Shown here: positions 5,411 to 32,237 of the stretch, piece by piece
Layout: the number at the start of each line of letters is the position of its first letter
How positions within the stretch are numbered: the stretch's first letter is position 1
Source: an uncultured Bacteriovoracaceae bacterium
Lineage (GTDB): Bacteria; Bdellovibrionota; Bacteriovoracia; Bacteriovoracales; Bacteriovoracaceae
DNA length: 36,035 bases
Direction: 5' to 3'
Assembly (NCBI GenBank): GCA_938034385.1
Contig: CALHLC010000059.1
Location: 1-36,035, forward strand
Notes under the pieces: model-generated
Database searches by the model: none
Seen by the model: only the letters and a program-made list of their open reading frames with translations
What the model was told of the DNA's origin: nothing
Position numbers and translations under genes: made by a program

Positions 5411-5416
5411 CGTTAA

Positions 5417-7801: not shown

Positions 7802-7805
7802 ATAG

Positions 7806-11561: not shown

Positions 11562-11571
11562 AAGAGTAATT

Positions 11572-14575: not shown

Positions 14576-17500
14576 TAACTGAAGATCAATTAGAGCTACT
14601 ATGCATAGACTGGTTAAAAGAACTTGGTTGGGAATATGAATGTGGTTATGATATTGCTCCTGATACAGATAGACCATTTAGAAAAGACTATAAAGAAGTG
14701 GTAATTATTGATCGTTTAAGAGATTCTCTTGTAAAAATTAATCCTAATGTTCCAGAAGACAAAATTGATGAAGTTGTAAAAAGACTATCTCGCCCAGAAT
14801 CTCCAATCCTCGAAGTAAATAATCGACAATTTCACCGTTTTATAAATGACGGTGTTCCTATTGAGGTAAGAGTTGATGGAAGACTTAAAGGCGACTTTGT
14901 TAAAGTAATCGACTTTAATAATGTAAAGAATAATGACTTTCTAATTATTAATCAGTTTACCATTCACGGTAAAAACGGGAATAGAAGACCTGATGTCATC
15001 GCTTTTATTAATGGTCTTCCGATTGCCGTATTAGAACTTAAAAACCCTGCTGATGAAAATGCTGACATTTGGAAAGCATTTGAGCAGATCAACACTTACA
15101 AAGAAGAATTGCCTGATTTATTTTCCTATAATGTTGCTTCAATTATTTCTGATGGTATCAATGCTCGAATTGGTTCTATCACTTCAGGTAAAGAGCGTTA
15201 TGGATATTGGCGAACTCGAAGTAATGAGAAGGATATCCCAAAATTTGAGTTTGAACTAGAAACTATGACTAAGGGCTTTTTTAATAAAGAACTTCTTTTA
15301 GACTTCATACGATACTTTGTTATTTTTGAAGAAAACGGCGGAAACATTATTAAAAAAATTGCTGGTTATCATCAATTTCATGCCGTTAGAGAGGCTGTTA
15401 ATAGTACAATTGCAGCCACACAGGATGTAAAAGACGGTAAATGTGGCGTTGTTTGGCATACTCAAGGCAGTGGAAAGTCTATTTCTATGAGTTGTTATGC
15501 GGCTAAATTAATGAATCATCCTAGAATGAATAACCCAACACTTGTTGTTGTAACTGATAGAAATGATCTTGATGGGCAACTTTATCAAACGTTTTCAAAT
15601 GCTAAAGAGCTTCTTCGTGAAGAGCCTGAACAAGCAGATAATAGAGATGAGCTAAGAAAACTTTTAAAGCGTCCGTCAGGTGGGATTATTTTTACTACCA
15701 TTCAAAAGTTTTCACTTATGGATGGTGAAAATAGCTTTCCTGAGTTAACTGATAGATCAAACGTTGTTGTGATTTCTGATGAGGCGCATAGAAGTCAGTA
15801 TGGTTTAAAGGCAAAGGTTCGTGAGGCCGACGGTAAGTTAACCTATGGTTACGCCAAACACTTGCGAGATGCCTTGCCTAATGCTGGTTTCATTGGTTTT
15901 ACTGGTACACCTGTGGCTCAAGAAGACAGAGACACTAAGGCTGTTTTTGGAGATTATGTTTCTATTTACGACATAGAACAAGCTGTAAAAGATGGCGCAA
16001 CAGTTCCTATCTATTACGAATCAAGACTTGCTGAGCTTCAACTGTCTTCTGAAGAGTCTGATATTGATGCTGAAATTGATGAGGTTATGGAGCAATCAGA
16101 AGACAGCTCAGATACTTATGTTAATGAGCAAAAAACAAAGTGGGCAGCTCTCGAAAAGCTCGTAACTGCTGATTCTAGAGTTGAGCAGGTTGCAAAAAAT
16201 CTTGTTGATCACTGGGAAGATCGCCTTAAAACAATTGATGGAAAGGCTATGATAGTCTGTATTTCCAGAGAAGCCTGTGTCCAAATGTACAATGAATTAG
16301 TTGCACTCAGACCTGATTGGGCTGGCTCTGTTGATACTAACGGAAGGCCAAGTTTGGATGATGGTGTTGTTAGAGTTGTTATGACAGGGAGTGCCTCAGA
16401 TAAAAAAGAATTACGAAATCATGTTTATGATAAAAAAGGGCGTAAACATCTTGAAAAGCGATGTAAAGACTCTGAAGACTCTCTTAAAATAGTTATTGTT
16501 CGTGATATGTGGCTGACAGGGTTTGACGCGCCAATGATGCATACAATGTACATTGATAAGCCTATGAGAGGAGCAAACCTTATGCAGGCCATTGCTCGAG
16601 TAAACCGTGTTTTTAAGGATAAGCCTGGTGGTTTAGTTGTTGATTATTTAGGAATCGCCAATGAGTTAAGAGAGGCTTTAAAAACATATACTCAGAGTAA
16701 TGGTAAAGGGCAACCCACGATAGATGTTTATGAAGCCTTAACGATCTTACTAGGAAAAGTTGATTATGTTAGAGATATGCTCAAAGAGATAGATTACTCA
16801 GAGTTTAAAAACTCGAAAAAACTTTTTTATATTATTGCTTCAGCTTGTGATCATTTATTAGGCCTAGAAGATGGAAAAAAGAATTTCTGCGACGTTGTTT
16901 TGGGTATCACTAAATCAAATGCATTATGTGGAACTATGCCAGAGGCGATCGAGTTAAGAGAAGAAATAGCACTTTTCCAAGCAATTAAAGTTGCTTTAAC
17001 TAAAAAAGAGGGTGCTGATAAAAAGATCTCAGATGATCAGGTTCAAAATGCTCTAAGACAAGTTGTCTCTAAAGCTTTGGTCTCTGATAAAATAGTAGAT
17101 ATTTTTGAAGCTGCTGGTCTTGAAAGTCCAGATATTTCAATCCTTAGTGATAGTTTTTTAGATGAAGTAAAAAACATGAAGCAGAAAAACTTAGCTGTTG
17201 AAATGTTATCACGTCTCCTTAAAGGTGAAGTGAAATCGAAGACTGCAAAAAATATCATTCAGGCTAAGAAATATTCCGAGTTACTCTCTAGAGCTTTATT
17301 AAAATATCGTAATCGTTCGATTGAAACAGCACAAGTTATTGAAGAACTCATACAAATGGCGAAAGATTTTAAAGACGAGATGAAAAGAGGAGAAGATCTA
17401 GGGCTTAATGAAGATGAACTCGCTTTTTATGATGCTCTTGCTGATGATGAAGCAGCGCTAAGAGATCTTGGTGATGAGATACTAAAAAAAATAGCACATG

Positions 17501-17688
17501 AATTAACAGATCAGTTACGTAAAACCGTCACGGTTGATTGGGCCCAGAGAGAAAGTGTAAGGGCCAGTATTAGGATTAAGATTAAAAGATTGTTAAGGAA
17601 GTATAAATATCCTCCTGAGAAAACGGAAGAAGCAATCGCTTTAGTTTTGAAGCAGGCTGAGACTCTTTCTGAAAGTTGGGTAAGTTAG
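14572..17688 (+). CDS. hsdR: Type I restriction endonuclease/translocase subunit
   Basis: 1038 residues. The N-terminal PD-(D/E)XK nuclease is RRPDVIAFINGLPIAVLELKNP (Asp141, Glu155, Lys157), with GNRRPDV just before. The SF2 motor has Walker A HTQGSGKS (296-303), TDRNDLDGQL, DEAHRSQYG (403-411), FTGTPV, then the second RecA domain with VRDMWLTGFDAPMMHTMYIDKPM and AIARVNR. A helical C-terminal part follows for binding HsdM/HsdS. All key residues look intact, so the system is probably active. The next gene, gajA, begins only nine bases downstream. Confidence 0.96.
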   Translation: MITEDQLELLCIDWLKELGWEYECGYDIAPDTDRPFRKDYKEVVIIDRLRDSLVKINPNVPEDKIDEVVKRLSRPESPILEVNNRQFHRFINDGVPIEVRVDGRLKGDFVKVIDFNNVKNNDFLIINQFTIHGKNGNRRPDVIAFINGLPIAVLELKNPADENADIWKAFEQINTYKEELPDLFSYNVASIISDGINARIGSITSGKERYGYWRTRSNEKDIPKFEFELETMTKGFFNKELLLDFIRYFVIFEENGGNIIKKIAGYHQFHAVREAVNSTIAATQDVKDGKCGVVWHTQGSGKSISMSCYAAKLMNHPRMNNPTLVVVTDRNDLDGQLYQTFSNAKELLREEPEQADNRDELRKLLKRPSGGIIFTTIQKFSLMDGENSFPELTDRSNVVVISDEAHRSQYGLKAKVREADGKLTYGYAKHLRDALPNAGFIGFTGTPVAQEDRDTKAVFGDYVSIYDIEQAVKDGATVPIYYESRLAELQLSSEESDIDAEIDEVMEQSEDSSDTYVNEQKTKWAALEKLVTADSRVEQVAKNLVDHWEDRLKTIDGKAMIVCISREACVQMYNELVALRPDWAGSVDTNGRPSLDDGVVRVVMTGSASDKKELRNHVYDKKGRKHLEKRCKDSEDSLKIVIVRDMWLTGFDAPMMHTMYIDKPMRGANLMQAIARVNRVFKDKPGGLVVDYLGIANELREALKTYTQSNGKGQPTIDVYEALTILLGKVDYVRDMLKEIDYSEFKNSKKLFYIIASACDHLLGLEDGKKNFCDVVLGITKSNALCGTMPEAIELREEIALFQAIKVALTKKEGADKKISDDQVQNALRQVVSKALVSDKIVDIFEAAGLESPDISILSDSFLDEVKNMKQKNLAVEMLSRLLKGEVKSKTAKNIIQAKKYSELLSRALLKYRNRSIETAQVIEELIQMAKDFKDEMKRGEDLGLNEDELAFYDALADDEAALRDLGDEILKKIAHELTDQLRKTVTVDWAQRESVRASIRIKIKRLLRKYKYPPEKTEEAIALVLKQAETLSESWVS

Positions 17689-17697: not shown

Positions 17698-19482
17698 ATG
17701 AGAATTTCCAGAGTAATAATTAAAAACTTTAGAGGTATTAAATTTGGTGAGGTTATGTTTCCAAACCATGCTGTAGTGGTTGGGGATAACAATATAGGTA
17801 AATCAACAGTTTTAGAAGCAATTGATTTAGTACTTGGCCCAGATCGTATGAGAAGAAAGCCTGCAATTAATGAGCATGATTTCTTTGCTGGTGATTATTT
17901 GTGTAATGACAAAACACCTATTGAAATATTTATAGAAGTAACAGTTGTTGCTATTAACGACGAACAAGAACGTCATTTTAAAGATCATGTTGAGTGGTGG
18001 GATACTCATACTGAGAGTTTAGTTCAAAATCCACCTCCCGAGTCAATAGATCCAGAAGCAGTTCTACCTGCGATTCGAGTTTGTTTTAAAGGTTCTTATG
18101 ATACTGAAGAAGACGATTTTATTGGAAATACTTATTTTCAGCTGCCAGTAAAAGATGACGGAACTCTTGTTCCCTTTAAAACTAGAGATAAAAGAGTTTG
18201 TGGTTTTTTATATTTGAGAACATTGAGAACAGGCTCAAGAGCATTAAGTCTTGAAAGAGGTTCGTTGTTAGATATTATCCTACAACTAAGTAAAGTAAAG
18301 CTCGATATGTGGGAAGAGACTTTAGAGCAAATAAGAGCTATCAATGTTGCTGACAATCCAGAACTTGGAGTTTTAAATATCTTGTCTGGAGTACAAGACT
18401 CTTTGAAGTCATTGGTTCCATCAGACTGGGGAACCAATCCTAAAATGAAGGTTTCGGACTTTACACGAGAGCATCTTAGAAAAACTCTCAATGTATTTAT
18501 GTCTACTGGGGTAAAAAAAGTAAATGGGGAGGATCATATAGCTCCATTTCGAAAGCAGGGAACTGGAACAATAAACACTCTTGTTTTATCAATGCTATCC
18601 CTAATTGCAGACTTGAAACAAAATGTTATCTTTGCGATGGAAGAGCCAGAGATTGCGATACCACCGCATACGCAAAAGAGAATAATTAACAGTGTTAGAG
18701 ACAAGTCTTCGCAAGCAATTTTCACCTCTCATTCGCCATATGTGCTAGAAGAATTTGATCCAAAAGAAATAGTAGTGTTAAGTAATGAGGATGGGGTGGT
18801 AAAGTCATGCTTTGCAGGATTTACAGATAATATAAAAAGAAAGTCATATCAATTAGAATTCAGAAAACGCTATTGTGAAGCATTGTTAGCAAGTAGAGTA
18901 TTAATTGCTGAAGGTAGAACTGAGTATGATGCTTTACCATTAGTTGCAAGACATCTAAATAGCCTAAAACCTAAGGAGTACTCCAGCCTTGAGGCTTTGG
19001 GGATAGCTATTATTGACGCGGAGTCGGACACGCAAATAAAACCAATCGCAAGTCTATTAAAGAGTTTTGGTAAAACCACTTATGCTATTTTTGATAAACA
19101 AGATGCAACCCAAGGGGCAGGTATCAACAATGAAGTTGACTATTCATATGAGTCACCAGAAAAGAGCTTTGAAAAGCTAATAATGAACCACATCCCATCC
19201 GATAAATTAAAGTCTTTTGCAATAAAGCTTGTATCTGACGATGAATGGCCGACACATTTAAACTCACATGTACCATCTGAGACAAGTACTAATGAAGAAA
19301 TTAAAAGCCAATTAGAAAAATACTTTGGCTGGTCAAAAGGTGCTGGTACTGCAGCGTTACTGTTGCAAAGTTGTAGTTATGAAGAGATACCAAACTTTAT
19401 AAAAGAAACTTTAAAGAACATTAGACAAACAGTAAATCAGGTAAAAACAGGTGAAGTTAACCTTAATGACTTCTTAGATTAA
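17698..19482 (+). CDS. gajA: Gabija GajA-like OLD-family ATPase/TOPRIM nuclease
   Basis: 594 residues. The N-terminal ABC-type ATPase has ISRVIIKNFRGIKFGEV, Walker A GDNNIGKST (29-37), a signature-like RKQGTGTINTLV (285-296), Walker B NVIFAMEEPE (309-318) and the His loop FTSHSPYVLEE (342-352). The C-terminal TOPRIM part has VLIAEGRTEYDAL (Glu405) and acidic strands IIDAESD and IFDKQD. A class 2 OLD protein directly followed by a UvrD-like helicase is the defining layout of Gabija (GajAB), in which GajA nicks phage DNA when nucleotides are depleted. It is co-directional with hsdR (gap of nine bases) and gajB (gap of three). Confidence 0.9.
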   Translation: MRISRVIIKNFRGIKFGEVMFPNHAVVVGDNNIGKSTVLEAIDLVLGPDRMRRKPAINEHDFFAGDYLCNDKTPIEIFIEVTVVAINDEQERHFKDHVEWWDTHTESLVQNPPPESIDPEAVLPAIRVCFKGSYDTEEDDFIGNTYFQLPVKDDGTLVPFKTRDKRVCGFLYLRTLRTGSRALSLERGSLLDIILQLSKVKLDMWEETLEQIRAINVADNPELGVLNILSGVQDSLKSLVPSDWGTNPKMKVSDFTREHLRKTLNVFMSTGVKKVNGEDHIAPFRKQGTGTINTLVLSMLSLIADLKQNVIFAMEEPEIAIPPHTQKRIINSVRDKSSQAIFTSHSPYVLEEFDPKEIVVLSNEDGVVKSCFAGFTDNIKRKSYQLEFRKRYCEALLASRVLIAEGRTEYDALPLVARHLNSLKPKEYSSLEALGIAIIDAESDTQIKPIASLLKSFGKTTYAIFDKQDATQGAGINNEVDYSYESPEKSFEKLIMNHIPSDKLKSFAIKLVSDDEWPTHLNSHVPSETSTNEEIKSQLEKYFGWSKGAGTAALLLQSCSYEEIPNFIKETLKNIRQTVNQVKTGEVNLNDFLD

Positions 19483-19485
19483 TAA

Positions 19486-21204
19486 ATGAAAATTAATATT
19501 TGTTCTGAAAGACAAAAAATACTTGATTCAAATGAGAACTTACTGGTTCTTGGGGGACCTGGTTCTGGAAAAACTACCATCGCACTAATAAAGTGTTCTC
19601 AAGAAACTAAAAATCTTCTAAAAGGTCAAAAAACTTTATTTTTAAGTTTCGCACGCGCAACAGTCGCAAGAGTCCTAGAAAGTGCAAGTTCTTTAGTATC
19701 AAAAGATGGTTTAAAAACTATAGAAGTTAATACCTATCACGGCTTTTTTTGGAATATTTTAAGGAGTCATTCATATTTGCTAAACCCTAAGTATCCACTT
19801 AAGCTAATTACACCCTCGGAGGCAGCAGTTCAAATGGCGCATATTGCGTCAGATAATAGATCTTCCGAATTTGAAAGGCTGTTCCATGATGAAGGAATAT
19901 TAGGCTTTGACCTGTTTGCTAAATATACTAAGGATTTACTTAGCAGGTCTAGCAAATTAAGAAGCCTTATATCTAATACTTATCCCATAATCTTTGTCGA
20001 TGAATTTCAAGATACGAATTCAGAGGAGTGGGAAGTCATTAAGATCTTGGGAGAAAATTCCACTATTATTGCTTTGGCTGATGTGGAGCAAAGAATTTAC
20101 GAGTTCAGAGGGGCAGATCCTGCTCGAATTGGACAATATATTTCTGATTTTAAACCTTTAACTTTTGATTTTGGAATTGAAAATAACAGGAGCAATGGTA
20201 AAGATATCGCACAATATGGGAATGATATTCTTACTGGTACAGTTAGGACTACACAGTACAATGATGTTGAAGTTTTCAGTTATCCTTTTTATAGAGACTT
20301 CCACGAGATGTATTCTTTAAAAACTAAATTGATCGATGGAATTAAAAGAGTTAACCATCTTGATGATTGGTCTATAGCCATTTTAGTACCCACTAAAAAG
20401 CAAATGTTACAAGCATCCAACTACTTATCATCACAGAAAGATAATCTTCCAGTTTTAGAACATCATGTTGCCGTTGATGCTGAAGGGCCAACGTTAGCGG
20501 GTTATCTTTTTTCTCTTATGATCGAAGACCATAGCGACCCCGCTTATTTGAAAAAGAAGATTTTATTATCTTTAATAGACCATATGAAAGGAAGAAAGGG
20601 GGCATCACCTCCCACTAAAGCAGAGTTGGCATTATCAGTCGCTTTAGAAAGTTATATTGAGACAGGAAAAAAGTTAAGGGGAACTCGTAGACTTGCCTTG
20701 CTAACTGAAATAGATAAAATTGTTGCTGAACGAATGTCTATTGAAATGTCAGGAAACCCTTGGGATGATTGGTTTTTAAACCTTAAACTATTCTCTGATC
20801 ATGCGAATGAAAAACCACTTGTCACAATTAGAGAGGATGCAAGATATGTAAGGCTCTTGCATAAAGGTTCATACTTAAGAGAGACCTTAAATACACAATG
20901 GAGACAATTTGGATTTTACAAAAATGCTTCTAAGGTTTACATGGATACAATTCAGCAAGAAAATTTCTCTACAACGGTGAAAAGGCATGCAGGCTTGCAT
21001 GTAATGACCATCCATAAAGCAAAAGGTAAGCAATTTAATGAGGTTTTTCTTTTCGAAGGATATAGAAGAGGCCGATTTGTTAGAAATCCCAATAAGCCCA
21101 AGGTTGTTGAGCAGTCAAAGCTAATGATGAGAGTTGGTGTTACTCGAGCAGTCAGTAAGACCACAATTTTAACTCCAAAAAGTAATGAGTGTGAGATTCT
21201 TTAG
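19486..21204 (+). CDS. gajB: Gabija GajB-like UvrD/Rep-family helicase
   Basis: 572 residues of SF1A helicase. Walker A LVLGGPGSGKTT (20-31), motif Ia-like LFLSFARATVARV, TYHGFFWNIL, Walker B FVDEFQDT (170-177), motif III ALADVEQRIYEFRGA (196-210), late motif VMTIHKAKGKQFNEVFL and motif VI RVGVTRA. It is somewhat longer than the roughly 500-residue GajB prototype. In Gabija, GajB is thought to sense DNA ends or nucleotide state and act with GajA. It is the last gene of the operon; its stop codon overlaps, tail to tail, the stop of the histidine kinase on the other strand. Confidence 0.9.
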   Translation: MKINICSERQKILDSNENLLVLGGPGSGKTTIALIKCSQETKNLLKGQKTLFLSFARATVARVLESASSLVSKDGLKTIEVNTYHGFFWNILRSHSYLLNPKYPLKLITPSEAAVQMAHIASDNRSSEFERLFHDEGILGFDLFAKYTKDLLSRSSKLRSLISNTYPIIFVDEFQDTNSEEWEVIKILGENSTIIALADVEQRIYEFRGADPARIGQYISDFKPLTFDFGIENNRSNGKDIAQYGNDILTGTVRTTQYNDVEVFSYPFYRDFHEMYSLKTKLIDGIKRVNHLDDWSIAILVPTKKQMLQASNYLSSQKDNLPVLEHHVAVDAEGPTLAGYLFSLMIEDHSDPAYLKKKILLSLIDHMKGRKGASPPTKAELALSVALESYIETGKKLRGTRRLALLTEIDKIVAERMSIEMSGNPWDDWFLNLKLFSDHANEKPLVTIREDARYVRLLHKGSYLRETLNTQWRQFGFYKNASKVYMDTIQQENFSTTVKRHAGLHVMTIHKAKGKQFNEVFLFEGYRRGRFVRNPNKPKVVEQSKLMMRVGVTRAVSKTTILTPKSNECEIL

Positions 21205-22595
21205 TTTGTAATAACGAATGTTTTTTTCCGTAGTAAAAGAATATTTTTGTTTGGCAATGATAAAGCTCTGCTAAAGCTAGAGTTAATTACCACGTTATTA
21301 AAGCCAAAGGAGTTAATTTTCTCTATATCTTTATTATTTGTTTGTGACCCTTTTATGTTGTAATCAATAAAAACAGTGTGTTTTTTGTTAAGGTTTGTAA
21401 CTAAATCAAAAAATGATTTAAGATCCTCAAATCCCTTGTAGGGTATATTTTTTGATTTCGAAATAATCTCCCAATTTTTATGTACTATCTCACTATCATC
21501 AATAAGAATAATCCCAGATGGAGAAAATTCTATTTCCTTGAGGGGAAGTTTAATTTCAACTTTCACCCCTTTTTTATGAGCCCTTCTATTTTGAATTTCA
21601 ATACTTCCTTGAATTGATTCTACAAATCTTTGAGATTGGTACAATCCAAGTCCTGACTGGGACTTGCTACTGACATCTCGTGAAAGTGGATCCTCCACGT
21701 TGAGGCCTATGCCGTTGTCTGTAACTGAGATTTCTAGATTGTCTTTGTCTTTTGATGCAAGCAATTCAATTTGAATGTATTTATTTTCCGTAGATGCCTC
21801 AATTGAATTGTTGATAATATTAGAAAGAGTCCTCTGAAATTCTGACTTACTAATCGAGACTGAAAAGTCTTTGGCAATATCCTTGATTTCAAGATCAATT
21901 TGAAGGCTCTTCAGTTCAGAATACTCTTTTTTCTTAAGGGAAATAGTTTCCTCCAAAAGACTTTTCAAGTTCAATATTTCTTTAAAGGAGTTTTCTTCTT
22001 TGTTGTAAGAGTTTAAATTCTCAAGAACTTGCTCAATTTGCTGAAAAGATTGCTGAACAAGGTTTTTAGAATCGTTGTTTTCTTGTATGAAGTTTTTAAG
22101 CTGAGTCAAAGGGGATTTGATATCATGATAAACAAGATCAGCTAATTCTGACTTGGCCTCAGCTATTTTTGCTATTGTTAACTTCCGGTTTACTTCTTTT
22201 TGTGCTTTTGAAGAGAAAAAGAAAAGCAGGATAACCAATACTGAAAATATAGAAAGAGGAGTGATTAATTTTAGATACTTCTTAAGAAAAGAATATTTAA
22301 TAAAATGCTTACCATAGATCTGTTTTGATAATGAAAATAGTCCCTCTTGAGGTCTTTGTGGGGTAATCTCTATGTTATCGATATGAAAGCTTCTTTTTAT
22401 ACTAAAAATATTTTTTTCTAGTAATTCTCTTTGATCTAAAACGAGATTGTCCGTGAGAAGATTTTGATTTTTCCTATGAACTAAAATTACTTCATTTTTT
22501 GTTGTTTGGTATCTATCAAGTGCGCTGAAGATTAAAAGGCTGAAGCTTAAAAAGAAAATAGCATAGATGCTTTTTTGTAAGATATTATCTTTCAT
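21201..22595 (-). CDS. Hybrid histidine kinase with C-terminal receiver domain
   Basis: 464 residues. Two membrane helices (about 10-26 and 108-128) bracket an extracytoplasmic sensor segment of about 80 residues; no HAMP or PAS domain is evident. The dimerisation helix has LVYHDIKSPLTQL (phospho-His157). The ATPase has NIINNSIEAS (N box), DNGIGL (293-298) and SGLGLY (314-319). Residues about 360-464 form a receiver: ILIDDSE (Asp366/367) and VFIDYNIKG (phospho-acceptor Asp411). Because it ends in a receiver without an HPt domain, a separate phosphotransfer protein is expected. It overlaps the periplasmic binding protein gene by 11 bases, and that protein is the likely ligand-binding partner of the sensor segment. 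Confidence 0.92.
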   Translation of the reverse strand: MKDNILQKSIYAIFFLSFSLLIFSALDRYQTTKNEVILVHRKNQNLLTDNLVLDQRELLEKNIFSIKRSFHIDNIEITPQRPQEGLFSLSKQIYGKHFIKYSFLKKYLKLITPLSIFSVLVILLFFFSSKAQKEVNRKLTIAKIAEAKSELADLVYHDIKSPLTQLKNFIQENNDSKNLVQQSFQQIEQVLENLNSYNKEENSFKEILNLKSLLEETISLKKKEYSELKSLQIDLEIKDIAKDFSVSISKSEFQRTLSNIINNSIEASTENKYIQIELLASKDKDNLEISVTDNGIGLNVEDPLSRDVSSKSQSGLGLYQSQRFVESIQGSIEIQNRRAHKKGVKVEIKLPLKEIEFSPSGIILIDDSEIVHKNWEIISKSKNIPYKGFEDLKSFFDLVTNLNKKHTVFIDYNIKGSQTNNKDIEKINSFGFNNVVINSSFSRALSLPNKNILLLRKKTFVITN

Positions 22596-23523
22596 AGACG
22601 ACCTCTTTTTTGATATTCCATGAAAGGTAGTTTTCCTCTGTTTTGGCAGGAATTTTATTCTTTTTATTTTTAAAGCACTTAAATGACTTTTGAGTACAGT
22701 CTTCTTCTAAAATTTTAATAAGTTTTAAAGAATGGTAGCTGTAAAATGCTAAGTCAGAGCTAAATTTAGATGACTTTGTAAATGTGTTGAACCGATATAC
22801 TGATTTAACGTATTTAAGATCTTTGAAAACTTGATTTAGATAGATGCTTTTTGGGCCCCATGAATCGGCTCCGATAATAATTTTTGAGTATTTGCCTTGA
22901 TCAATATCGTTAATAGCCTTTGCGGATTCGTTCTCATCGAGAATGATAAAAATTGCATCATGTTTGGATTTAATTTTCTTACTTGTTTCGTAATATTGTC
23001 CCTTAATTTTTAAATTCTGCTGAATCTGGTTTTTTAGATCAACTGAATAAATGTTTGAAGGACTAAAGATTATTCCAATATCCTTATAGTGATTATTAAG
23101 GTGCTTAGAAATCTTTTTAGAAAATAAACTATTTATACCTGATGTTAAAAATATGGTTTTTGAACCACTAAAAGTGTTAGAGGTAGCAGTAGGGGAGAAA
23201 AGCATTTTATCTCCAAGGAAACTCTTTATAGCGGAGACTTTATTAGACTGACCAAGACCAACAAAGTAATCATTTTTCTCTTTGTTCAATCTAAAAGTCT
23301 TTTGAAGTTCTCCGAGGTTTTTACCGATGTCAATTTTGTTCAAATTAAAGCAAGTGCCTTTGATTTCTTGTTTTGCTTTATCTAGACCTTCAAGAATTTG
23401 TCTGCCGTAAACAGTGCCATCGTTTCCGATACTATTGAAGTGTGAAAGCACACCAATATTTACGCAAGAGTATGCGGGTGAAAGTGTAAATATTAAAAAT
23501 GTAATGCTAAATATCTGTTTCAT
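22585..23523 (-). CDS. Periplasmic substrate-binding protein, branched-chain amino-acid type fold
   Basis: 312 residues with signal peptide MKQIFSITFLIFTLSPAYS. The mature start CVNIGVLSHF, then GTVYGRQILEGLDKAKQEI, LFSPTATSNTF and the strand IGIIFSPSNIYSVDLKNQI fit a type I periplasmic binding fold (Peripla_BP_6, LivJ-like). No ABC transporter permease or ATPase gene is nearby, so it is unlikely to serve uptake. Its gene is sandwiched by overlaps between a nucleosidase (17 bases) and a membrane histidine kinase (11 bases), which points to sensing, as LuxP does for LuxQ. The ligand is unknown. Confidence 0.8.
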   Translation of the reverse strand: MKQIFSITFLIFTLSPAYSCVNIGVLSHFNSIGNDGTVYGRQILEGLDKAKQEIKGTCFNLNKIDIGKNLGELQKTFRLNKEKNDYFVGLGQSNKVSAIKSFLGDKMLFSPTATSNTFSGSKTIFLTSGINSLFSKKISKHLNNHYKDIGIIFSPSNIYSVDLKNQIQQNLKIKGQYYETSKKIKSKHDAIFIILDENESAKAINDIDQGKYSKIIIGADSWGPKSIYLNQVFKDLKYVKSVYRFNTFTKSSKFSSDLAFYSYHSLKLIKILEEDCTQKSFKCFKNKKNKIPAKTEENYLSWNIKKEVVYER

Positions 23524-24268
23524 CTAAAAACTTAAATAACGAATAAACGTTATTCACATTCTCCTTAATAAAATCGACATACTGATCATTGTTTCCAGAT
23601 AGATCATCAGAGCATATTTTCATCATCCCAAATCGGACATGAAACTTTGAGCATACATAAGCGCAAGCTGCCGATTCCATTTCAACAAAATCGGCATTAA
23701 AAGTTTTGTTGAGATATTTTCTTCTCTGAAGACTATCTACAAAGGATGCCCCAGATAAAACTTTTCCCTTTTTGTATTCAAGATAATTCTTTTCACAGAA
23801 CATTTTAAAGAGTTCAGTCATCATTGGCTGGACTCGATAGTCTTTGTTATTTTTCTTTTTTTCTTCTTCACTTAATGAAAGATACGACCTTCCTGTTCCC
23901 ATCTTTTCAATATTTTCCCCATAATAAAGAGAATCTTGATCAGCTATTGTTGAAGCGATAAAGTAATCTCCTTGCTCGATCTTATCTGATAGGGCACCAC
24001 CAACTCCAAATAAAAATACAGATGAGACTTCGTACTTATTTAAAATAGCGGATAAATTCATTGAAGCATTGATCGGCCCAACTCCTGATTTCATAAAAAT
24101 CCAATTATGATTTGTCCCTTCACACATCAAAGCATTTTCTTGAAAGTTATATTCAAAAAAACTTAAATTTGCTTCTGAGACGTATTCTTGAAGATCCTTA
24201 AGTAAAGAATCTTGCTCGCAATCCATTGCGGTCATAAATATCTTAAATGTTTTGTACTCATTACTCAT
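23507..24268 (-). CDS. MTA/SAH nucleosidase-family protein (PNP/UDP phosphorylase superfamily)
   Basis: 253 residues. It aligns by eye to E. coli MTA/SAH nucleosidase at all catalytic points: MTAMDCEQDSL (Glu18, like Glu12), FMKSGVGPINASMNLS, FGVGGALSDKIEQGD, FVEMESAACAYVC (Glu198, like Glu174) and ICSDDLSGN (Asp221, like Asp197). The family hydrolyses methylthioadenosine or S-adenosylhomocysteine, feeding methionine salvage and, via S-ribosylhomocysteine, AI-2 synthesis. An insertion near 112-150 (YYGENIEKMGTGRSYL, SEEEKKKNNKDY) suggests changed substrate choice. There is no signal peptide, so it is cytoplasmic. It overlaps its neighbours on both sides inside a signalling operon, an unusual setting. 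Confidence 0.85.
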   Translation of the reverse strand: MSNEYKTFKIFMTAMDCEQDSLLKDLQEYVSEANLSFFEYNFQENALMCEGTNHNWIFMKSGVGPINASMNLSAILNKYEVSSVFLFGVGGALSDKIEQGDYFIASTIADQDSLYYGENIEKMGTGRSYLSLSEEEKKKNNKDYRVQPMMTELFKMFCEKNYLEYKKGKVLSGASFVDSLQRRKYLNKTFNADFVEMESAACAYVCSKFHVRFGMMKICSDDLSGNNDQYVDFIKENVNNVYSLFKFLDETDI

Positions 24269-24437
24269 CTTTAACCTTCAATAATTCTTTTTGTAGAAGT
24301 TCTATTGATTCAAGAGCGACCTTAATGAATTCATTTTTAAGAACAATATCATCAATCTCATCTGCAATTTTTAAACTGTGTTTGATTGAGCTGAGATTTC
24401 CCTTTAAATCATGGATATTGATAGAATCTGCAATCAT
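24261..24437 (-). CDS. 58-residue protein with a histidine-kinase-like H-box (candidate phosphotransfer protein)
   Basis: A short gene between the response regulator and the nucleosidase. AGAGGAGG lies six bases before the ATG at 24437. The ATG overlaps the regulator's stop as ATGA, and its stop overlaps the nucleosidase start by eight bases. Residues 6-19 read INIHDLKGNLSSIK: His9 in an HDLK context, like HDIK in the nearby kinase (His157). The rest (IADEIDDIVLKNEFIKVALESIELLQKELLK) is amphipathic helix, so the whole could form a two-helix hairpin like a DHp domain. A free-standing DHp/HPt would complete a His-Asp-His-Asp relay. Function is inferred; reality of the gene is well supported by the ribosome site and overlaps. 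Confidence 0.75.
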   Translation of the reverse strand: MIADSINIHDLKGNLSSIKHSLKIADEIDDIVLKNEFIKVALESIELLQKELLKVKDE

Positions 24438-25795
24438 CGGAAACCTCCTCTGTTTACAAATGCTTCTCTATTTAGATTGTATTTCTTATAGAAATTACAA
24501 AGATTACTTGAAGAAATATGCAGCATGTTTGAAGCGTCTTTGGTAACACCCGTGGATTTCTCAAGTGCTTTTACAATTGCTTGTTTTTGAAGTTCATCAA
24601 TGACAAACTTAAGTCCATATTTTTCAATAAGTTTGAACTGAGAATGAGATAACTTGATCTCTCGGACTCTATCTTCTTTGAACTCAATATCAGTATGATC
24701 AATAAGGGTTAGCTCTTTAAGCTCCCAAGATTTAATAAGGGCCTTAAGCTGTCTTGAATTTTGAGGCCAATCATAACTTGTAAGTTTATTAATGGCCTTC
24801 TCTGTTAAGGCCATCTTGATAGTGCAATCCTTCATGAAATGATCGATTTGTAGTTCTATATCTTTTTTTCTTTCATTTAGTGGAGGAATGCGAAGATTAT
24901 AATAATCGATTCTTCCATAGAGATCTCTTTTAAAAGTTCCAGCATTTACAAGCTCCAGTAGATCCACGCTGGATGCAGCAATGAGTTTAAAGTCGGAGAA
25001 AAGTTCTTTTTCTGATCCTAAAGGAGAATAGATTTTTTCATCTATTACTTTTAAAAGTTTTTGCTGGGCCTTTAATGAAAGAGTATGAATTTCATCGAGA
25101 AACAATACTCCTCCATCAGCCAATTCAAAAATTCCTTTTTTATCATTAATTGCCCCTGTGAAAGATCCTTTCACATGCCCAAAAAGTTCAGACTCCAAGA
25201 GGTTGTCACTGAATTGAGAGCAGTTGACTGACTTGAAGGGTGTATCTTGCTCTGGAAACCATGATTCATAAAGAAACTTTGCAATAGTTGTTTTTCCAAC
25301 TCCTGTTGGCCCAGAGATTAAAATAGGAATGTCATGATTGGGATTTACGGTGAGATTTAGAATTGATTGAATAAGTTTTTGATCTTGAGTTTTAAATTTT
25401 TTTAAGAGCCTTATTTTTTGGAGTGAGTTATCCTTATGAGAAAAATGATATTTGTTAAAAACTTGTCCAATTCCTTCTCTTATTCGATCTTTATTAAGAT
25501 AACTCTTAGCTCCAAGAGTATAGCAATTTCTAAAAATTTCGTTTTTATCCATGCTGCTTATAACAACGGGATAAACAGAAGACTCTTTAGCTTGCTTTAT
25601 AACCTCATAGCCTTCAAGTTTTCCTTTGTAGTAGAGGTCTATAAAAGCAATATCGTATTTTCTATTTCTTAATTCTATTAATGCGCTTTCTTTCGAGTCA
25701 CAAGTGGTAACAAGTCCTCTTGAATTGCATTCATGCGAAATAATTTTTTGCCACCTTTGTTCGTCATCAACAATAAGGATTTTTAAATTTTTCAT
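24434..25795 (-). CDS. Sigma54-dependent response regulator (NtrC/LuxO type)
   Basis: 453 residues in the standard three parts. Receiver, 1-120: ILIVDDEQRW (Asp10/11), FIDLYYKG (phospho-acceptor Asp53), SYLNKD (Lys102). AAA+ domain, about 135-365: SGPTGVGKTT (Walker A, 161-170), ELFGHVKGSFTGA (the sigma54-contact loop as GSFTGA), GGVLFLDEIHTLS (Walker B), RDLYGRIDYY. C-terminal Fis-type HTH: IVKALEKSTGVTKDASNMLHISSSNLCNFYKKY. It should act as an enhancer-binding activator. It is divergent from the conjugation operon, whose leader holds a sigma54 promoter and palindromes, so it is the probable activator of transfer. First gene of the five-gene signalling operon. Confidence 0.94.
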   Translation of the reverse strand: MKNLKILIVDDEQRWQKIISHECNSRGLVTTCDSKESALIELRNRKYDIAFIDLYYKGKLEGYEVIKQAKESSVYPVVISSMDKNEIFRNCYTLGAKSYLNKDRIREGIGQVFNKYHFSHKDNSLQKIRLLKKFKTQDQKLIQSILNLTVNPNHDIPILISGPTGVGKTTIAKFLYESWFPEQDTPFKSVNCSQFSDNLLESELFGHVKGSFTGAINDKKGIFELADGGVLFLDEIHTLSLKAQQKLLKVIDEKIYSPLGSEKELFSDFKLIAASSVDLLELVNAGTFKRDLYGRIDYYNLRIPPLNERKKDIELQIDHFMKDCTIKMALTEKAINKLTSYDWPQNSRQLKALIKSWELKELTLIDHTDIEFKEDRVREIKLSHSQFKLIEKYGLKFVIDELQKQAIVKALEKSTGVTKDASNMLHISSSNLCNFYKKYNLNREAFVNRGGFR

Positions 25796-25820
25796 TGGGA
25801 TAATATTTACAAGTTTAAAT

Positions 25821-25864
25821 ATGAAAATTCATTTTTAATTAACTTACATTCATAAAAAATGAAT
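25821..25864. promoter_or_regulatory. ATTCAT/ATGAAT palindromes, probable enhancer sites for the sigma54 activator
   Basis: ATTCAT-AAAAA-ATGAAT (25848-25864) is a perfect palindrome. ATGAA-AA-TTCAT (25821-25832) is a second. ATTCATTTTT (25827-25836) and AAAAATGAAT (25855-25864) also pair over the whole region. They lie about 125-165 bases before the expected sigma54 start, the usual distance for activator sites, and close to the activator's own start codon, so autoregulation is possible. Confidence 0.55.
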
Positions 25865-25960: not shown

Positions 25961-25976
25961 TGGCCTCATTCCTGCA
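25961..25976 (+). promoter_or_regulatory. Sigma54 (-24/-12) promoter of the conjugation operon
   Basis: TGGCCTCATTCCTGCA matches the sigma54 consensus: TGGC at the -24 end and TGC[A/T] at the -12 end with correct spacing. The transcript should begin near 25987, giving a leader of about 38 bases before the first gene. A sigma54-type activator is encoded immediately upstream on the other strand. Confidence 0.75.
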
Positions 25977-26024: not shown

Positions 26025-26222
26025 ATGGACGCACATGATCACACTTTTCACATCGAATCAAAACCAAAACAAAAAACTAAAAAGAAAAATGAAGACCTCA
26101 ATAGGCTTAAAAAGTATCTAAACTCTTTTTCGTTTTCTGATTATGAAATTGAAAGGGAGGAGTATCGAAGTTTTCAATCAAATATAAACGATTACTTATA
26201 TTTCGATATGTTGAAAATTTAA
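26025..26222 (+). CDS. Small charged protein, first gene of the conjugation operon
   Basis: 65 residues, no signal peptide or membrane segment. His-rich start (MDAHDHTFHI), a Lys-rich patch (KPKQKTKKK), then an acidic/aromatic helix-like tail (SFSDYEIEREEYRSF, NDYLYFDML). An excellent ribosome site (AAAGGAG) precedes the ATG, and the sigma54 promoter lies just upstream. No family is recognised. Its position suggests a regulatory or accessory role in transfer. Confidence 0.7.
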   Translation: MDAHDHTFHIESKPKQKTKKKNEDLNRLKKYLNSFSFSDYEIEREEYRSFQSNINDYLYFDMLKI

Positions 26223-26252: not shown

Positions 26253-26372
26253 ATGGAAAAAAAGCTAAGAGAGCTAGAAGAATTCGTTTTTGTTTCATTG
26301 GATGAATTAAGCGGATACTTCACTGTTACGAATCATATTTTTAATAAAGGGAGTTATTTTATATGTATTTAA
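26253..26372 (+). CDS. Very small protein, 39 residues, coupled to the following lipoprotein gene
   Basis: The ATG at 26253 follows AAGGAGG by five bases, one of the best ribosome sites in the window. The peptide (MEKKLRELEEF start, SGYFTV, NHIFNKG) is not recognised. Its last ten bases overlap the start of the large lipoprotein gene, and the GGGAG site of that gene lies inside it. It may be a leader peptide that couples translation rather than a stable protein. Confidence 0.5.
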   Translation: MEKKLRELEEFVFVSLDELSGYFTVTNHIFNKGSYFICI

Positions 26373-27988
26373 TTTTAAGTTTATTTTTAATGATGTCTTG
26401 CTCATTTGAAAATACTGAGCAGAAAGTTGATAAATCAAAAGAATTAATGGCTATGGACAGTGATGGTGATCAGGTTTCTGATTATGATGAAATCAGACAG
26501 GGAACGAACCGGTACGTAGCAAACCTTGTTATAGAAAAACCTGAAATCAAAAATCTAAGTTTGAAACTTGAGTACAAAGTGGAGGGTAGTGAAAAAGTAA
26601 AAACTTATTCAAAGAATTTTGATAAGATCAAGTTAATAGATTTTCAAAAAGAGCTACTTTCTTATGCTCATCATGAGCATGGGAATTACCTTGTAAATCA
26701 GCTTTTAGATCCTCATAAGGATTCTTTCAGAATTGATTTAAAAACCTCTGATAGGCTCAGTCTTAAGATTGATTCTAAAAGGTTGTCAGAAGTTGAAACG
26801 GAAACTATTTCAGTTGTTTTTAAAGGAGAACTTAAAAACTTTGAGAAAGGACAAGTTTTTGAGATTTTTCTTGGAAATAGTTATATCGGAGCAATTGAAA
26901 GTAAAAAATTTGAAATTGTTACTACCGTTGAAGATTTTATTACCCTTTTAGGGAAAGGAGAAAATCTTTACCTGAGGGTTGCTGATTTCAAAATAGGAGA
27001 TAAAACCTATCCTGAATTTAAAAGGGCCCTTCTTCAAAATTCAAGGTTGATCGCAATTAGCTATCCTCATAAAAGAGTAGAGTATTTTGTTTCAAAGAAG
27101 ATTAAAAATCTAAAAGATGGATTTAAGCAGATTTTTTCTAAAACCTATACTGGAGAAGATGATAAAATTACTAGACTTGGCTCTCAGGTGATTAATGATT
27201 ATCAAGGCTTCGTTACAGCCGCCATTGGAAACCCTTATGAGAGCTTGAATTCAGAAGTTCGGGTGTCATTAGTTGATAGATTAGACTCCAGGATGAAGTC
27301 AGATGCCCAAGGTGTAGTTTCTAGTACCTACTCAGAATCAAAACATTTTTTAGGGATTATCGATCGGAACTCAAGCTTTAAGCTTATGCTCAGAGTCTAT
27401 AATCAAAATGGTAGTTGGTATAATAGGAAAGTTTTTGATTATTCTAATAAAAAATGTCCTAGGACAGGATGTTATCCTTGGGATAAGGCTATTAGGTGTA
27501 CTTACGAAATTTTAAAATCTAAAAAAATTGCATCGACATTATCTTTAAAAGCAGGAAGCAGTCATGAACTTCATTACTTTTCTCTCGAAGTAAATAATAA
27601 GAGATACAACTTAAGAGATGTTTTAAAAGAAAAGCGTGCTCGTTTTAAAATTGTTAATTCCAAAGAAGCTGTTATTGAGTTTGATGATTTTGAACATTTT
27701 TTTGATGGAGATGAAACAAGCGAGTTAAAGCTCATTGTTCGAGGTGCAAAAAAAGTATTCTGGGAAGGGTTGAGAGTTGCAAGATTTAAAGGCCAAATAA
27801 CTTGCTTACTTGGAACGAGTGATCTTATGGCACGGTCTAAGTCTAAACTTGCTCCAACATCTGTGAATTATGGATTCATCAGAAAGGCCCTTAAACTACC
27901 AAACTCAAGGATTGCAAAGAAAAGAACTGTAAGTCTTCAAAGAAACATCGGATATTCCTTTGAACTAAAAGGGGCTATTCATGAGTAG
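26363..27988 (+). CDS. Large lipoprotein with an EF-hand-like calcium loop, T4SS-associated
   Basis: 541 residues. A short signal ends in LMMSC (lipid Cys13; Met at -3 is unusual). Residues 32-43, DSDGDQVSDYDE, form a calcium-binding loop of the thrombospondin type-3/EF-hand kind just after the membrane anchor. The long remainder is beta-rich, with a Cys-containing segment (NKKCPRTGCYPWDKAIRC) near 370-388 and a late Cys in QITCLLGT. No family is recognised. It leads the structural genes of the secretion operon and overlaps the VirB2-like gene by eight bases, so a role in the outer-membrane complex, cell contact or mating-pair formation is plausible but unproven. Confidence 0.7.
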   Translation: MYLILSLFLMMSCSFENTEQKVDKSKELMAMDSDGDQVSDYDEIRQGTNRYVANLVIEKPEIKNLSLKLEYKVEGSEKVKTYSKNFDKIKLIDFQKELLSYAHHEHGNYLVNQLLDPHKDSFRIDLKTSDRLSLKIDSKRLSEVETETISVVFKGELKNFEKGQVFEIFLGNSYIGAIESKKFEIVTTVEDFITLLGKGENLYLRVADFKIGDKTYPEFKRALLQNSRLIAISYPHKRVEYFVSKKIKNLKDGFKQIFSKTYTGEDDKITRLGSQVINDYQGFVTAAIGNPYESLNSEVRVSLVDRLDSRMKSDAQGVVSSTYSESKHFLGIIDRNSSFKLMLRVYNQNGSWYNRKVFDYSNKKCPRTGCYPWDKAIRCTYEILKSKKIASTLSLKAGSSHELHYFSLEVNNKRYNLRDVLKEKRARFKIVNSKEAVIEFDDFEHFFDGDETSELKLIVRGAKKVFWEGLRVARFKGQITCLLGTSDLMARSKSKLAPTSVNYGFIRKALKLPNSRIAKKRTVSLQRNIGYSFELKGAIHE

Positions 27989-28232
27989 AGTGCTTCTATT
28001 AATTTCAACACCAGTATTTGCAAGATCTATTAAGGGAACCATCGATAATATGGGCCAAGAGTCTCTAAGCCTAGGGCTTGCTTTATCAATTCTTGGAATT
28101 GCAGTAGGGGCTGCAAGTCTTATGTTTGGGAAACAAGATGCTACTCAAAAAATAGTAAGGGCAGTTATGGCAATTGTTTTATTTTCTGGGGCACCAGCTT
28201 TAGTGAGCTTTATCAAAGGATTAGTTCGATGA
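27981..28232 (+). CDS. VirB2/TrbC-like pilin
   Basis: 83 residues. A short hydrophobic leader (MSRVLLLISTPVFA) precedes a small protein with two hydrophobic helices (LGLALSILGIAVGAASLMF, AVMAIVLFSGAPALVSFI) separated by a short basic loop (GKQDATQKIVR). That is the layout of VirB2/TrbC major pilins. The VirB3-like gene follows with an ATGA overlap, the usual order. Confidence 0.75.
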   Translation: MSRVLLLISTPVFARSIKGTIDNMGQESLSLGLALSILGIAVGAASLMFGKQDATQKIVRAVMAIVLFSGAPALVSFIKGLVR

Positions 28233-28471
28233 GGAAGTTTCCAAAGTCTTTGACGAATTCTCCCAAATTTCTAGGGTTAGACTTGATAGATTTATCTGTA
28301 TTGGCGTTAGCAATTGTTCTTCCGCAGATATTTTTCATGAACAATATTTTTATAAGCTTGGGTTGCTTTCTATTCATTAAGCTAGGAAGGCATATTCTTG
28401 ATATCGAATCAATCTTAAAAGGATTTGAGATTAAGTTTAGAGAGATAGGCCCTTACTCGGAGGATCAGTAA
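28229..28471 (+). CDS. VirB3/TrbD-like inner-membrane protein
   Basis: 80 residues with two adjacent membrane segments (LIDLSVLALAIVLPQIFFM, IFISLGCFLFIKLGRHIL) after a short basic N-terminus and before a charged tail. The size, topology and location between the pilin and VirB4 are those of VirB3/TrbD. It ends TAATG, sharing one base with virB4. Confidence 0.7.
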   Translation: MRKFPKSLTNSPKFLGLDLIDLSVLALAIVLPQIFFMNNIFISLGCFLFIKLGRHILDIESILKGFEIKFREIGPYSEDQ

Positions 28472-30339
28472 TGATCCTCCCTTTTAAAATATCAGGAAGC
28501 CATGTAGTTGATTTGAAAGAGAATACCACTCAATGCTTTAAAGTTAATCCGATAGATAATTCTATCTATTCTCTTGAAAAACTTCAGAGTATTTACGAGC
28601 AGTATGAAAGTGATTTGAGAGAGAATCAAGAGGTTTTAAAGTTCTTTTACTTTAATAGGTCTGCTTATCTCAACTCGGTAGAGAATATTAGTTTTAATTC
28701 TATTTCTGTTAAAGAGGTAAATGCAGACGAAGTTTTAAAAAGCTATCTAGGCGATTACAAAAAGAATATTGAGTTCAAAGAGCATTTTTACAGAATAGAT
28801 AATCAATACACTTCAATTATTCACCTTAAGTCTTTTGAAGAAGTTGAAATCTGCACCCTTGAAGACTTTGATTTTGTTTTAAATTTAAAACCAGTTGATA
28901 AGCAGAAAACAATTTCAAAGCTAGATCTCAGAAGAAGGTTACATTTCTCAAATCTTTTTAAAGATTTAAAGGATATTGATAGTGAGAGTTCATTTAGTGA
29001 ATCTGAAGAGTATCTTGAAAAGGTAAAAAAAGATCAAGATAGATTTTATCAATTTGAGTCCTTTGTGTATGTGCGAGCTTTTGATGTTAAAACCCTGAAT
29101 GAAAAAATTAAAGAAGCTTCTATAGCCTTAAAAAGTAAGCAGATTGAGTTTAAGGTTTTAGGAAAGGATTTATCTTATCACTTTTACTTTAATCTTCCTG
29201 GAGTCATTCCAAGTTTTAAATACTCAAAGATTGCTCCTGTTTCTTTTTTAAGCTCACTTCTTCCTTTAAATCAACCAAAGGTTCATGATTTTGGTTTTGA
29301 ATTAAGGACGAATAAGGAAGGTGAAATCAATTTTAATCTTTTTGATAAAGGATCAACGAATTTTAATGCTTTAATTACAGGCTCTAGTGGCGAAGGAAAA
29401 TCGATGCTTGCGAACAAAATTCTTCTAGAAGAGATAAAAAAAGATACGAGCATTATTATTTTAGATCTTGGTAATTCTTTTAAGAGATTGGTTGATTACC
29501 ATGGTGGAGTAACATTGGATGAGTCTTTTAATCCATTTCAGTTTAAAGATCATAAATATCTATTGGAATTTGTTAAATCAATAATTCCAAATCTCTCTAA
29601 GTTTGATTGCGGGAAGATCTTATCGATTTTGAAGGAAAGCAACTCAATAAACTCATTAGAGAATTTGAAGGATATCCTTCGAGACGTGATTGAAGACATA
29701 GGCTTTCACTTTGAAGAATATGTTGAGCATTTTAACGAAGAGATTCTTGAAAATAAAAAGCTCATGTATGTAGAGCTATCAAAGTATCCAGATAATATTA
29801 AAGGTCCTTTGATAATTTATATTATTGAGTATTTTAAAAACATTCAGGGAAAGAAAATCCTTTTAATGGATGAATCGTGGCAGTTTCTAAAAAATAATGG
29901 TGAATTTATTGCTGAAACTTTTAGAACTCTTCGAAAACTTGAAGGGTCTGCGATTGCTATCTCTCAATCACTTGATGATTTTACTCATCACGATTTAGGG
30001 AAGGTCGTTTTTCAAAACTGCTTTTATCGTTTTAGCTTTAGACAAAAAGTTACTAATCCACCAATAGATGAACACGAAAGAGACTATTTGAAGTCGATAG
30101 CATCGATTAAGGATAAGTATTCTGAATTTGTTCTAAGTGTAGGGGATGAACCGAGAATCTTGAGGTATTACCCAAAAGATTTAGAGTTCATTCTTTTTAA
30201 TAGCTCAAGAAACTTCACCAGAAGAATCGAGAGCTTTATAGAAGGGAAAAAGAATTTCTTTTCTTATAAGAACATTATCAATCAATACAAACATGAATAT
30301 TTCAAAGGAGTGAATATTAATGAAGTATCTTCTAATTAG
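28471..30339 (+). CDS. virB4: VirB4/TraC-family conjugation ATPase
   Basis: 622 residues. The N-terminal half is divergent. The C-terminal ATPase has Walker A LITGSSGEGKSML (301-313), the strand IIILDLGNSFKRLV, Walker B KKILLMDESWQFLKN (461-475), then a TFRTLRKLEGSAIAISQSLDDF block and RFSFRQK. VirB4 powers pilus assembly and substrate transfer at the inner membrane. It is short compared with VirB4 (about 790) or TraC. Its end overlaps the next gene by 20 bases. Confidence 0.9.
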   Translation: MILPFKISGSHVVDLKENTTQCFKVNPIDNSIYSLEKLQSIYEQYESDLRENQEVLKFFYFNRSAYLNSVENISFNSISVKEVNADEVLKSYLGDYKKNIEFKEHFYRIDNQYTSIIHLKSFEEVEICTLEDFDFVLNLKPVDKQKTISKLDLRRRLHFSNLFKDLKDIDSESSFSESEEYLEKVKKDQDRFYQFESFVYVRAFDVKTLNEKIKEASIALKSKQIEFKVLGKDLSYHFYFNLPGVIPSFKYSKIAPVSFLSSLLPLNQPKVHDFGFELRTNKEGEINFNLFDKGSTNFNALITGSSGEGKSMLANKILLEEIKKDTSIIILDLGNSFKRLVDYHGGVTLDESFNPFQFKDHKYLLEFVKSIIPNLSKFDCGKILSILKESNSINSLENLKDILRDVIEDIGFHFEEYVEHFNEEILENKKLMYVELSKYPDNIKGPLIIYIIEYFKNIQGKKILLMDESWQFLKNNGEFIAETFRTLRKLEGSAIAISQSLDDFTHHDLGKVVFQNCFYRFSFRQKVTNPPIDEHERDYLKSIASIKDKYSEFVLSVGDEPRILRYYPKDLEFILFNSSRNFTRRIESFIEGKKNFFSYKNIINQYKHEYFKGVNINEVSSN

Positions 30340-31788: not shown

Positions 31789-32237
31789 GTGAGGTGAATT
31801 CTATAGAGGATTTATATGGGAAGAGTCATAAGCTTTATAAGTATGCTTTCTTTATTTCTTTAATAGTTGTTACTCTATTAATTGCTTTGTTTTTCTATCA
31901 AGCAGGAAAGATTGAAAAAAGATACTTTGCTCTTGCCCCTTCACTAGAAAAGATTCCTCCTGTTGAGGCAATTTGTGAAGAGGGTTTCAAGGACATTGTG
32001 ACTGATAAGAATGAATCTGTATTTTTATCTAGTGGAATTCAAGCAATTCTAAAGCAAAGACCTTTTATTATTGATCCTTTTAAAATCAAGTCTCTTGGGA
32101 TGAAAGATGGAAATTGCTTCATCATCTTAATTTCTAAGAAACAGACTTACTTATTTAAAGTTGGATTTATTAAAAACCAATTACTTGGATCAGTTATTGA
32201 TAGTGTCGATCAAATTTCACCAAAGGATATTTTATGA
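31785..32237 (+). CDS. VirB8/TrbF-like bitopic protein, short form
   Basis: 150 residues: a cytoplasmic N-terminus, one membrane helix (AFFISLIVVTLLIALFFY, about 21-38) and a periplasmic domain of about 110 residues. This is the VirB8/TrbF topology and the gene sits in the VirB8 position, but the domain is shorter than the usual 150-200 residues, and I see no decisive motif. It overlaps both neighbours by ATGA. Confidence 0.55.
   Translation: MSEVNSIEDLYGKSHKLYKYAFFISLIVVTLLIALFFYQAGKIEKRYFALAPSLEKIPPVEAICEEGFKDIVTDKNESVFLSSGIQAILKQRPFIIDPFKIKSLGMKDGNCFIILISKKQTYLFKVGFIKNQLLGSVIDSVDQISPKDIL

Follow-up and report, generated by a model that had tools for sequence, protein, structure and literature searches.

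A sensory operon with a sigma54 response regulator, conserved beside conjugative type IV secretion genes in Bacteriovoracaceae, as a candidate controller of DNA transfer

The window analyzed here, the whole of a 36,035-nucleotide contig (C59) from a Bacteriovoracaceae genome of 2.67 Mb (99% complete), carries five minus-strand signaling genes that diverge from a type IV secretion system (T4SS) operon (Table 1). In the explanation that we favor as reasonably probable, these genes form an element-borne sensory cassette, a four-step phosphorelay that responds to a small amino-acid-like ligand and controls the adjoining conjugative T4SS. We are fairly confident of the control of the T4SS by the cassette and much less so of the production of its own signal.

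Table 1. Features of the sensory cassette and its predicted target operon (window coordinates), and contents of the same slot at other T4SS loci
Feature	Location	Strand	Evidence
NtrC-type response regulator (RR), REC + sigma54 AAA+ (GSFTGA loop) + Fis-like HTH	24434-25795	-	Pfam PF00158 3.7e-51, PF00072 9.3e-11
Helical H-box protein of 58 aa, putatively a phosphotransfer hairpin that stands alone	24261-24437	-	His9 conserved; no Pfam family
MTA/SAH-nucleosidase-family enzyme (MTAN), enzyme slot	23507-24268	-	PNP_UDP_1 2.2e-24
LivK/HAAT-class type I periplasmic binding protein	22585-23523	-	profile and Foldseek; homologues match Peripla_BP_6
Membrane hybrid histidine kinase with H-box HDIKSPL and a degenerate receiver at the C terminus	21201-22595	-	HATPase_c 2.9e-16
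Imperfect palindrome, possible RR enhancer site (weak)	25815-25838	.	sequence
Palindrome ATTCATAAAAAATGAAT, possible enhancer site	25848-25864	.	conserved in G001
Sigma54 -24/-12-like site TGGCCTCATTCCTGCA, directed into T4SS operon	25961-25976	+	empirical p 0.042 in spacer
EF-hand-like lipoprotein, predicted target operon	26363-27988	+	a homologue is the first large gene at most T4SS loci read
VirB2 pilin (TrbC), predicted target operon	27981-28232	+	PF04956 2.1e-8
VirB4/TraC ATPase, predicted target operon	28471-30339	+	TraC-F-type 2.7e-35
VirB9- and VirB10-like genes, predicted target operon	32234-33417	+	CagX 2.3e-6 (below Pfam cut-off), TrbI 2.8e-9
VirD4-type coupling protein, predicted target operon	33903-35369	+	SXT_TraD 1.8e-34, T4SS-DNA_transf 6.4e-12
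DUF985 cupin (Cupin_5), separate 112-aa receiver, 570-aa kinase	G002 (same genus as window)
KynB-like cyclase, kinase with large N-terminal membrane part	G140, G021, G146, G136
SDR, 837-aa kinase	G112
Glyoxalase-family (VOC) protein	G037

All five ORFs that the sequence-only reading had assigned to an overlapping minus-strand operon were recovered, each overlapping the next one (span 21201-25795). Its calls of a sigma54 RR, a nucleosidase with intact catalytic residues, a binding protein without transporter genes, and a kinase ending in a receiver also held. The RR combines Response_reg (PF00072), Sigma54_activat (PF00158), and a weak HTH_8 match (PF02954), the domain set of the NtrC type; the GSFTGA loop of its AAA+ domain reads GAFTGA in the homologue from G050. 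The nucleosidase is one of four PF01048 (PNP_UDP_1) matches in the genome. Its catalytic Glu/Glu/Asp residues (E18, E198, and D221), which we take to be equivalent to those of Escherichia coli MTAN, are conserved in an alignment of four homologues. By these sequence features it belongs to the MTA/SAH nucleosidase family; a score of 91.8 bits, below the cut-off of 169 of the NCBIfam equivalog model PRK05584, does not fix its substrate.

The binding protein alone has no Pfam match. A six-member profile built from this family (A7) matches the LivJ-type structure 4gnr (1.5e-12) and other branched-chain and amino-acid binding proteins in PDB, and a Foldseek search with its low-confidence model returned LivK first (9.9e-10). 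Structures of the binding protein and the kinase were predicted from three-sequence alignments (pLDDT 54 and 50) and served solely to judge fold class and the order of strands. No ABC permease or ATPase was recognized among the ORFs read around four loci, and the idea that the binding protein serves an ABC transporter was rejected on the lack of a permease there. Pfam misses the C-terminal receiver of the kinase in the window and finds it in the homologue from G137 (1.5e-7); the acidic pair of the receiver aligns across all kinase homologues compared, and the low-confidence kinase model has a REC-like beta/alpha alternation at residues 362-455.

The same gene order is kept in relatives. Among 98 relatives, a search with the binding protein found full-length homologues in G001 (94% identity), which is of the same genus as the window, and in G050 (44%), a member of another genus, and weak matches in G022; a family-wide profile search added G137 and G152. 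G001, G050, and G137 encode the complete order of RR, small protein, nucleosidase, binding protein, and kinase, in G050 at 44%, 32%, and 35% identity to the window for the binding protein, the nucleosidase, and the RR, respectively. All four intact loci, including the one in the window, adjoin a T4SS operon in divergent orientation. In the three other genomes the cassette diverges from the EF-hand lipoprotein gene, beyond which VirB2-, VirB3-, and VirB4-like genes follow in G050 and G137; in G001 the contig stops within the lipoprotein gene. The fifth locus, in G152, is a remnant that retains the kinase and a truncated binding protein beside genes read as virB8-, virB9-, virB10-, and integrase-like. 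The outer flanks vary: the window has Gabija and type I restriction genes, G001 a type IIG enzyme, and G050, by reading, small thiol-type genes and a MerR-like regulator. Retention of the order in three other genomes, one of them from a different genus, is not due to chance. Loci in G057 and G024 that combine MTAN, a binding protein, and a HAD protein were set aside as instances of the same system; the binding protein is of a different class in G057, and no T4SS was seen.

The spacer between the divergent units contains a sigma54-type site directed into the T4SS operon, and G001 and G050 have a similar site in the equivalent spacer. All such sites are predicted ones, obtained with a sigma54 consensus whose scores were compared with those of first-order shuffles. 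In the first run, sites with p<0.05 upstream of the T4SS were found in 12 of 17 tests of loci with a sigma54 regulator (as counted by the script, with L125 at 0.0499 and one locus tested with two regions), compared to 1 of 20 for loci with a peptide-type regulator and 4 of 17 for the others. For L125 and L142, where intervening ORFs had truncated the region scored, a new region was set after that run, with p=0.002 for each. Counted once per locus, the site is present at p<0.05 in 13 of 16 sigma54-RR loci (G001, at 0.052, L126, and L151 fail, and L168 is left out) versus 1 of 20 peptide-regulator loci. Thus, the sigma54-type site is enriched where a sigma54 regulator is present. For G137, p is 0.024 in the 608-base spacer and 0.172 over the whole 2.4 kb. 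Between the site in the window and the lipoprotein gene there are two short plus-strand frames (26025-26222 and approximately 26254-26370), conserved in G001 and not evident in G050.

In the opposite direction, toward the cassette, none of the nine T4SS-linked cassettes tested has a significant sigma54 site. Sigma54-dependent autoinduction of the cassette was accordingly rejected; the predicted target of the regulator is the T4SS, not the operon that encodes it, and nothing points to the transcriptional self-amplification that is typical of quorum sensing. Of the sequence-only interpretation, a conserved divergent unit, the lack of a transporter, a sigma54-type site ahead of the T4SS operon, and a plausible role in the control of transfer are supported. 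Counting against such control, some T4SS loci of the same clade have a sigma54-like site and no regulator nearby.

A single His (His9 in the window) is aligned by MAFFT in 14 of 14 divergent small proteins of equivalent position, the rest of the sequence being varied. MAFFT is free to align His, but His makes up 3% of the residues in these proteins, so that an invariant column is unlikely to arise by chance. At all loci with the small protein for which the kinase was read, a receiver is either fused to the kinase or encoded as a separate 112-aa gene, and two SBP_bac_5 loci with plain kinases (L126 and L135) lack both the small protein and the receiver. This co-variation is consistent with His-Asp-His-Asp transfer. 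In the proposed mechanism, the LivK-class periplasmic protein would bind an extracellular small molecule, probably alpha-amino-acid-like, and then engage the membrane kinase; phosphate would pass from the kinase His to the receiver Asp, from there to the hairpin protein of 58 aa at its His, and finally to the receiver of the sigma54 regulator, which would then bind DNA and activate the sigma54 promoter ahead of the T4SS operon. The degeneracy of the kinase receiver, undetected by Pfam in the window, counts against this phosphorelay. If the relay operates as proposed, the stand-alone H-box hairpin would be defined as a recurrent phosphorelay part.

The position occupied by the nucleosidase is taken by other enzymes at other T4SS loci. 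The family was searched with a VirB4 profile, and the DNA upstream of 60 VirB4 loci was read. A sigma54 regulator occupies the slot at 13 of these, in addition to the four MTAN loci, and most such slots also hold a 60- to 75-aa protein, an enzyme, and a sensor (Table 1). In a maximum-likelihood tree of the RRs, the regulators of the MTAN, cupin, SDR, VOC, and LysE cassettes group together (90/86) with one regulator from contig C64 of the window's own genome. The MTAN regulators of the window and G001 are nearest to that of the Cupin_5 cassette (100/99), and the MTAN regulator of G137 is nearest to the SDR and LysE ones (100/99). With MTAN on two RR branches, each nearer to a different enzyme, the modules move on one RR backbone: enzymes are exchanged on a related regulator lineage.

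The T4SS-side slot also holds a different arrangement, consisting of an SBP_bac_5 protein, a kinase, a sigma54 RR, an alpha/beta hydrolase, a secreted protein of approximately 100 aa, and an ICMT-like methyltransferase. It is found at the second T4SS of the same genome (L126, G000:C2:6000-19500) and on contig C15 of G137, and with variations in G039; SBP_bac_5-type cassettes were noted at L126, L135, and L142, and the secreted protein of L135 ends in GDGPGI. This gene set suggests a modified peptide signal. Upstream of many T4SS operons that lack a sigma54 regulator, the same position is taken by proteins of approximately 100 to 135 aa with a signal-peptide-like start and an ending such as GDGSGG or GDMGGG (L132, L138, L141, L144, L149, L155, L157, L158, L173, L174, and L177; several repeats of the ending in L149), mostly beside an HTH-like protein of approximately 270 aa. 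Judging by these features, the two look like peptide-pheromone precursors with their regulators.

Related cassettes also exist away from T4SS genes. A broad search of the phylum with the six-member profile mixes in ordinary LivK proteins of ABC transporters, and loci were therefore read singly. In these wider loci, the binding protein and kinase are preceded by an enzyme (radical SAM or adenosine-deaminase-like) and often by a membrane transporter (LysE, EamA-like, or amino-acid permease); Pfam confirms LysE in G022 and G018, the permease on C64, the adenosine deaminase in G123, and the radical SAM enzyme in G022, and the EamA-like proteins were assigned by eye. A second complete cassette in the window's own genome (L203, G000:C64:1-11361, positions 1192-8517) encodes an RR, a 71-aa His protein, an SDR, a heme-oxygenase-like enzyme, an amino-acid permease, a LivK-class protein, and a hybrid kinase, and no T4SS genes were recognized on that contig. 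As the cassettes on C64, in G022, and on G018 C120 have no T4SS in the DNA read, this type of module is not T4SS specific.

Several individual ORFs in such loci deserve mention. In each of two single long frames, the binding protein of a kinase operon (LivK class) is apparently fused to another protein, a radical SAM enzyme at L050 (574-2364) and an amino-acid permease at L057 (1279-3633). A 59-aa ORF with GGDMGGGGTGSGGIDIVGDGSGGGG, a motif shared with putative peptide precursors, directly follows the LysE-type cassette of G018 (L204, 6407-6586). At L032 (2-1207), a PLP enzyme of the BioF/CqsA superfamily heads an operon with an MFS transporter, a LivK-class protein, and a hybrid kinase; it belongs to the PRK07505 subfamily (376.6 bits, above the cut-off of 342) and scores only 78.7 bits against 428 for the CqsA-type model.

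LivK-class pockets hold alpha-amino acids, and cleavage of SAH by MTAN yields S-ribosylhomocysteine, itself an alpha-amino acid, so that, from family knowledge, the chemistry would be coherent. The nucleosidase in the interchangeable slot would most likely make or condition the sensed compound, such as S-ribosylhomocysteine or a different product of SAH/MTA cleavage, and each cassette would then carry its own signal. We regard the identity of ligand and enzyme product as a tentative proposal. A rather unlikely alternative is that the system senses recipients, prey, or nutrients, with the binding protein detecting an amino acid or metabolite released by a neighbor or prey and the enzyme removing or modifying that compound inside the cell; the cassette would then be a cue detector and not a self-made signal system. 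Such a role fits LivK-class proteins, which usually see amino acids, the lack of an exporter in the MTAN version and of a sigma54 site toward the cassette, and the hosts themselves, Bacteriovoracaceae being a family known for predators. Yet the related cassettes do include LysE, EamA-like, and permease genes, the first two usually being exporters, and unrelated chemistries in one slot fit signal diversification better than a single catabolic role.

It is improbable that an ordinary two-component operon with a spare nucleosidase merely lies beside a T4SS: every part does come from a common family, and the genome has other PF01048 genes, but the order persists in another genus at 32-44% identity (enzyme and binding protein) between unrelated outer flanks, repeated adjacency is unlikely in a genome with approximately 14 strong sigma54 activators over 2.67 Mb, and the locus types differ in their sigma54 sites.

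The window contains both a T4SS and a coupling protein, the combination used to recognize integrative conjugative elements. In G137, a tyrosine integrase and an SSB follow the coupling protein, and similar genes were read in G002; the window contig stops before that region. After the coupling protein at L205 (6537-9684) and L034 (188-3307) come a protein of approximately 245 aa that resembles the one at 35366-36034 in the window, an SSB, and a tyrosine integrase, a stretch that probably marks one element end in G002 and G137. A search for att direct repeats around the element returned only 13-base matches, none convincing. Beyond the kinase end of the operon, the window carries a Gabija pair (17698-21204; GajA, 1.5e-249, and GajB, 7.5e-201) and an entire type I restriction system (11521-17688), both looking like element cargo.

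With some skepticism, we raise the broader possibility that mobile elements of Bacteriovoracaceae have a polymorphic family of private chemical languages, in which a fixed phosphorelay backbone before the T4SS receives swapped, matched synthase-receptor pairs (MTAN, SDR, KynB-like, cupin, VOC, or a peptide with an oligopeptide-binding protein), each pair governing DNA transfer through the detection of carriers or non-carriers. The parts are of known kinds; so far as limited literature searches can tell, the way they are combined, at one fixed place and with exchanged enzymes, is undescribed. Those searches, of titles and abstracts with limited coverage of subscription papers, returned no description of such cassettes and almost no literature on conjugation in this predatory lineage. 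If the favored explanation is right, conjugation in this lineage would be under exchangeable enzyme-plus-receptor modules, and several candidate signals and new transporter-synthase-receptor sets would be available in one place.

The parallel to LuxP, LuxQ, LuxU, LuxO, and Pfs drawn in the sequence-only reading survives as wiring logic and fails for family membership and for AI-2. LuxS is absent from all 125 Bacteriovoracaceae genomes searched, the window's own included (controls in the same search match in 5 of 14), and production of AI-2 by this organism is refuted. The binding protein is of the LivK class and not of the ribose-binding class of LuxP, as judged from profile matches and from fold matches of a low-confidence model. 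Pfam finds no LuxQ periplasmic sensor domain in the kinase up to an E value of 1 and no LuxU-type Hpt domain in the 58-aa protein, which has an H-box motif instead. The RR scores 161 bits against the LuxO equivalog cut-off of 800, and the RtcR and NorR models score it higher than the LuxO model does. A true AI-2 system, which the equal set of signaling roles and the membership of MTAN in the Pfs family had suggested, is therefore extremely improbable on the absence of LuxS, the class of the binding protein, the missing Hpt and LuxQ matches, and the low LuxO score.

What the cassette shares with the Vibrio LuxPQ-LuxU-LuxO relay and Pfs/LuxS is a separate periplasmic binding protein with a hybrid kinase, a small His phosphotransfer protein, a sigma54 RR, and an MTAN, which in Vibrio serves the methyl cycle. 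It differs in that LuxS is absent, the binding protein is of the LivK class, an H-box hairpin takes the place of Hpt, a single operon holds all the genes, the predicted target is a T4SS, and the enzyme is exchangeable. Quorum-controlled conjugation systems (TraR/TraI plasmids, Rap/Phr on pLS20 and ICEBs1, and the Enterococcus sex pheromones) are similar in that a mobile element has its own sensor near the transfer genes, whereas the cassette has no LuxI/LuxR or RRNPP pair and would use a membrane phosphorelay, sigma54 activation, and a small-molecule enzyme of varying chemistry. Kinases linked to a binding protein, such as XylFII-LytS or hybrids of the BT1754 type, likewise receive their input from a periplasmic type I binding fold. 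Those systems sense sugars for catabolism, whereas the cassette has no catabolic or ABC genes and goes beyond them in its intermediate His protein and sigma54 RR.
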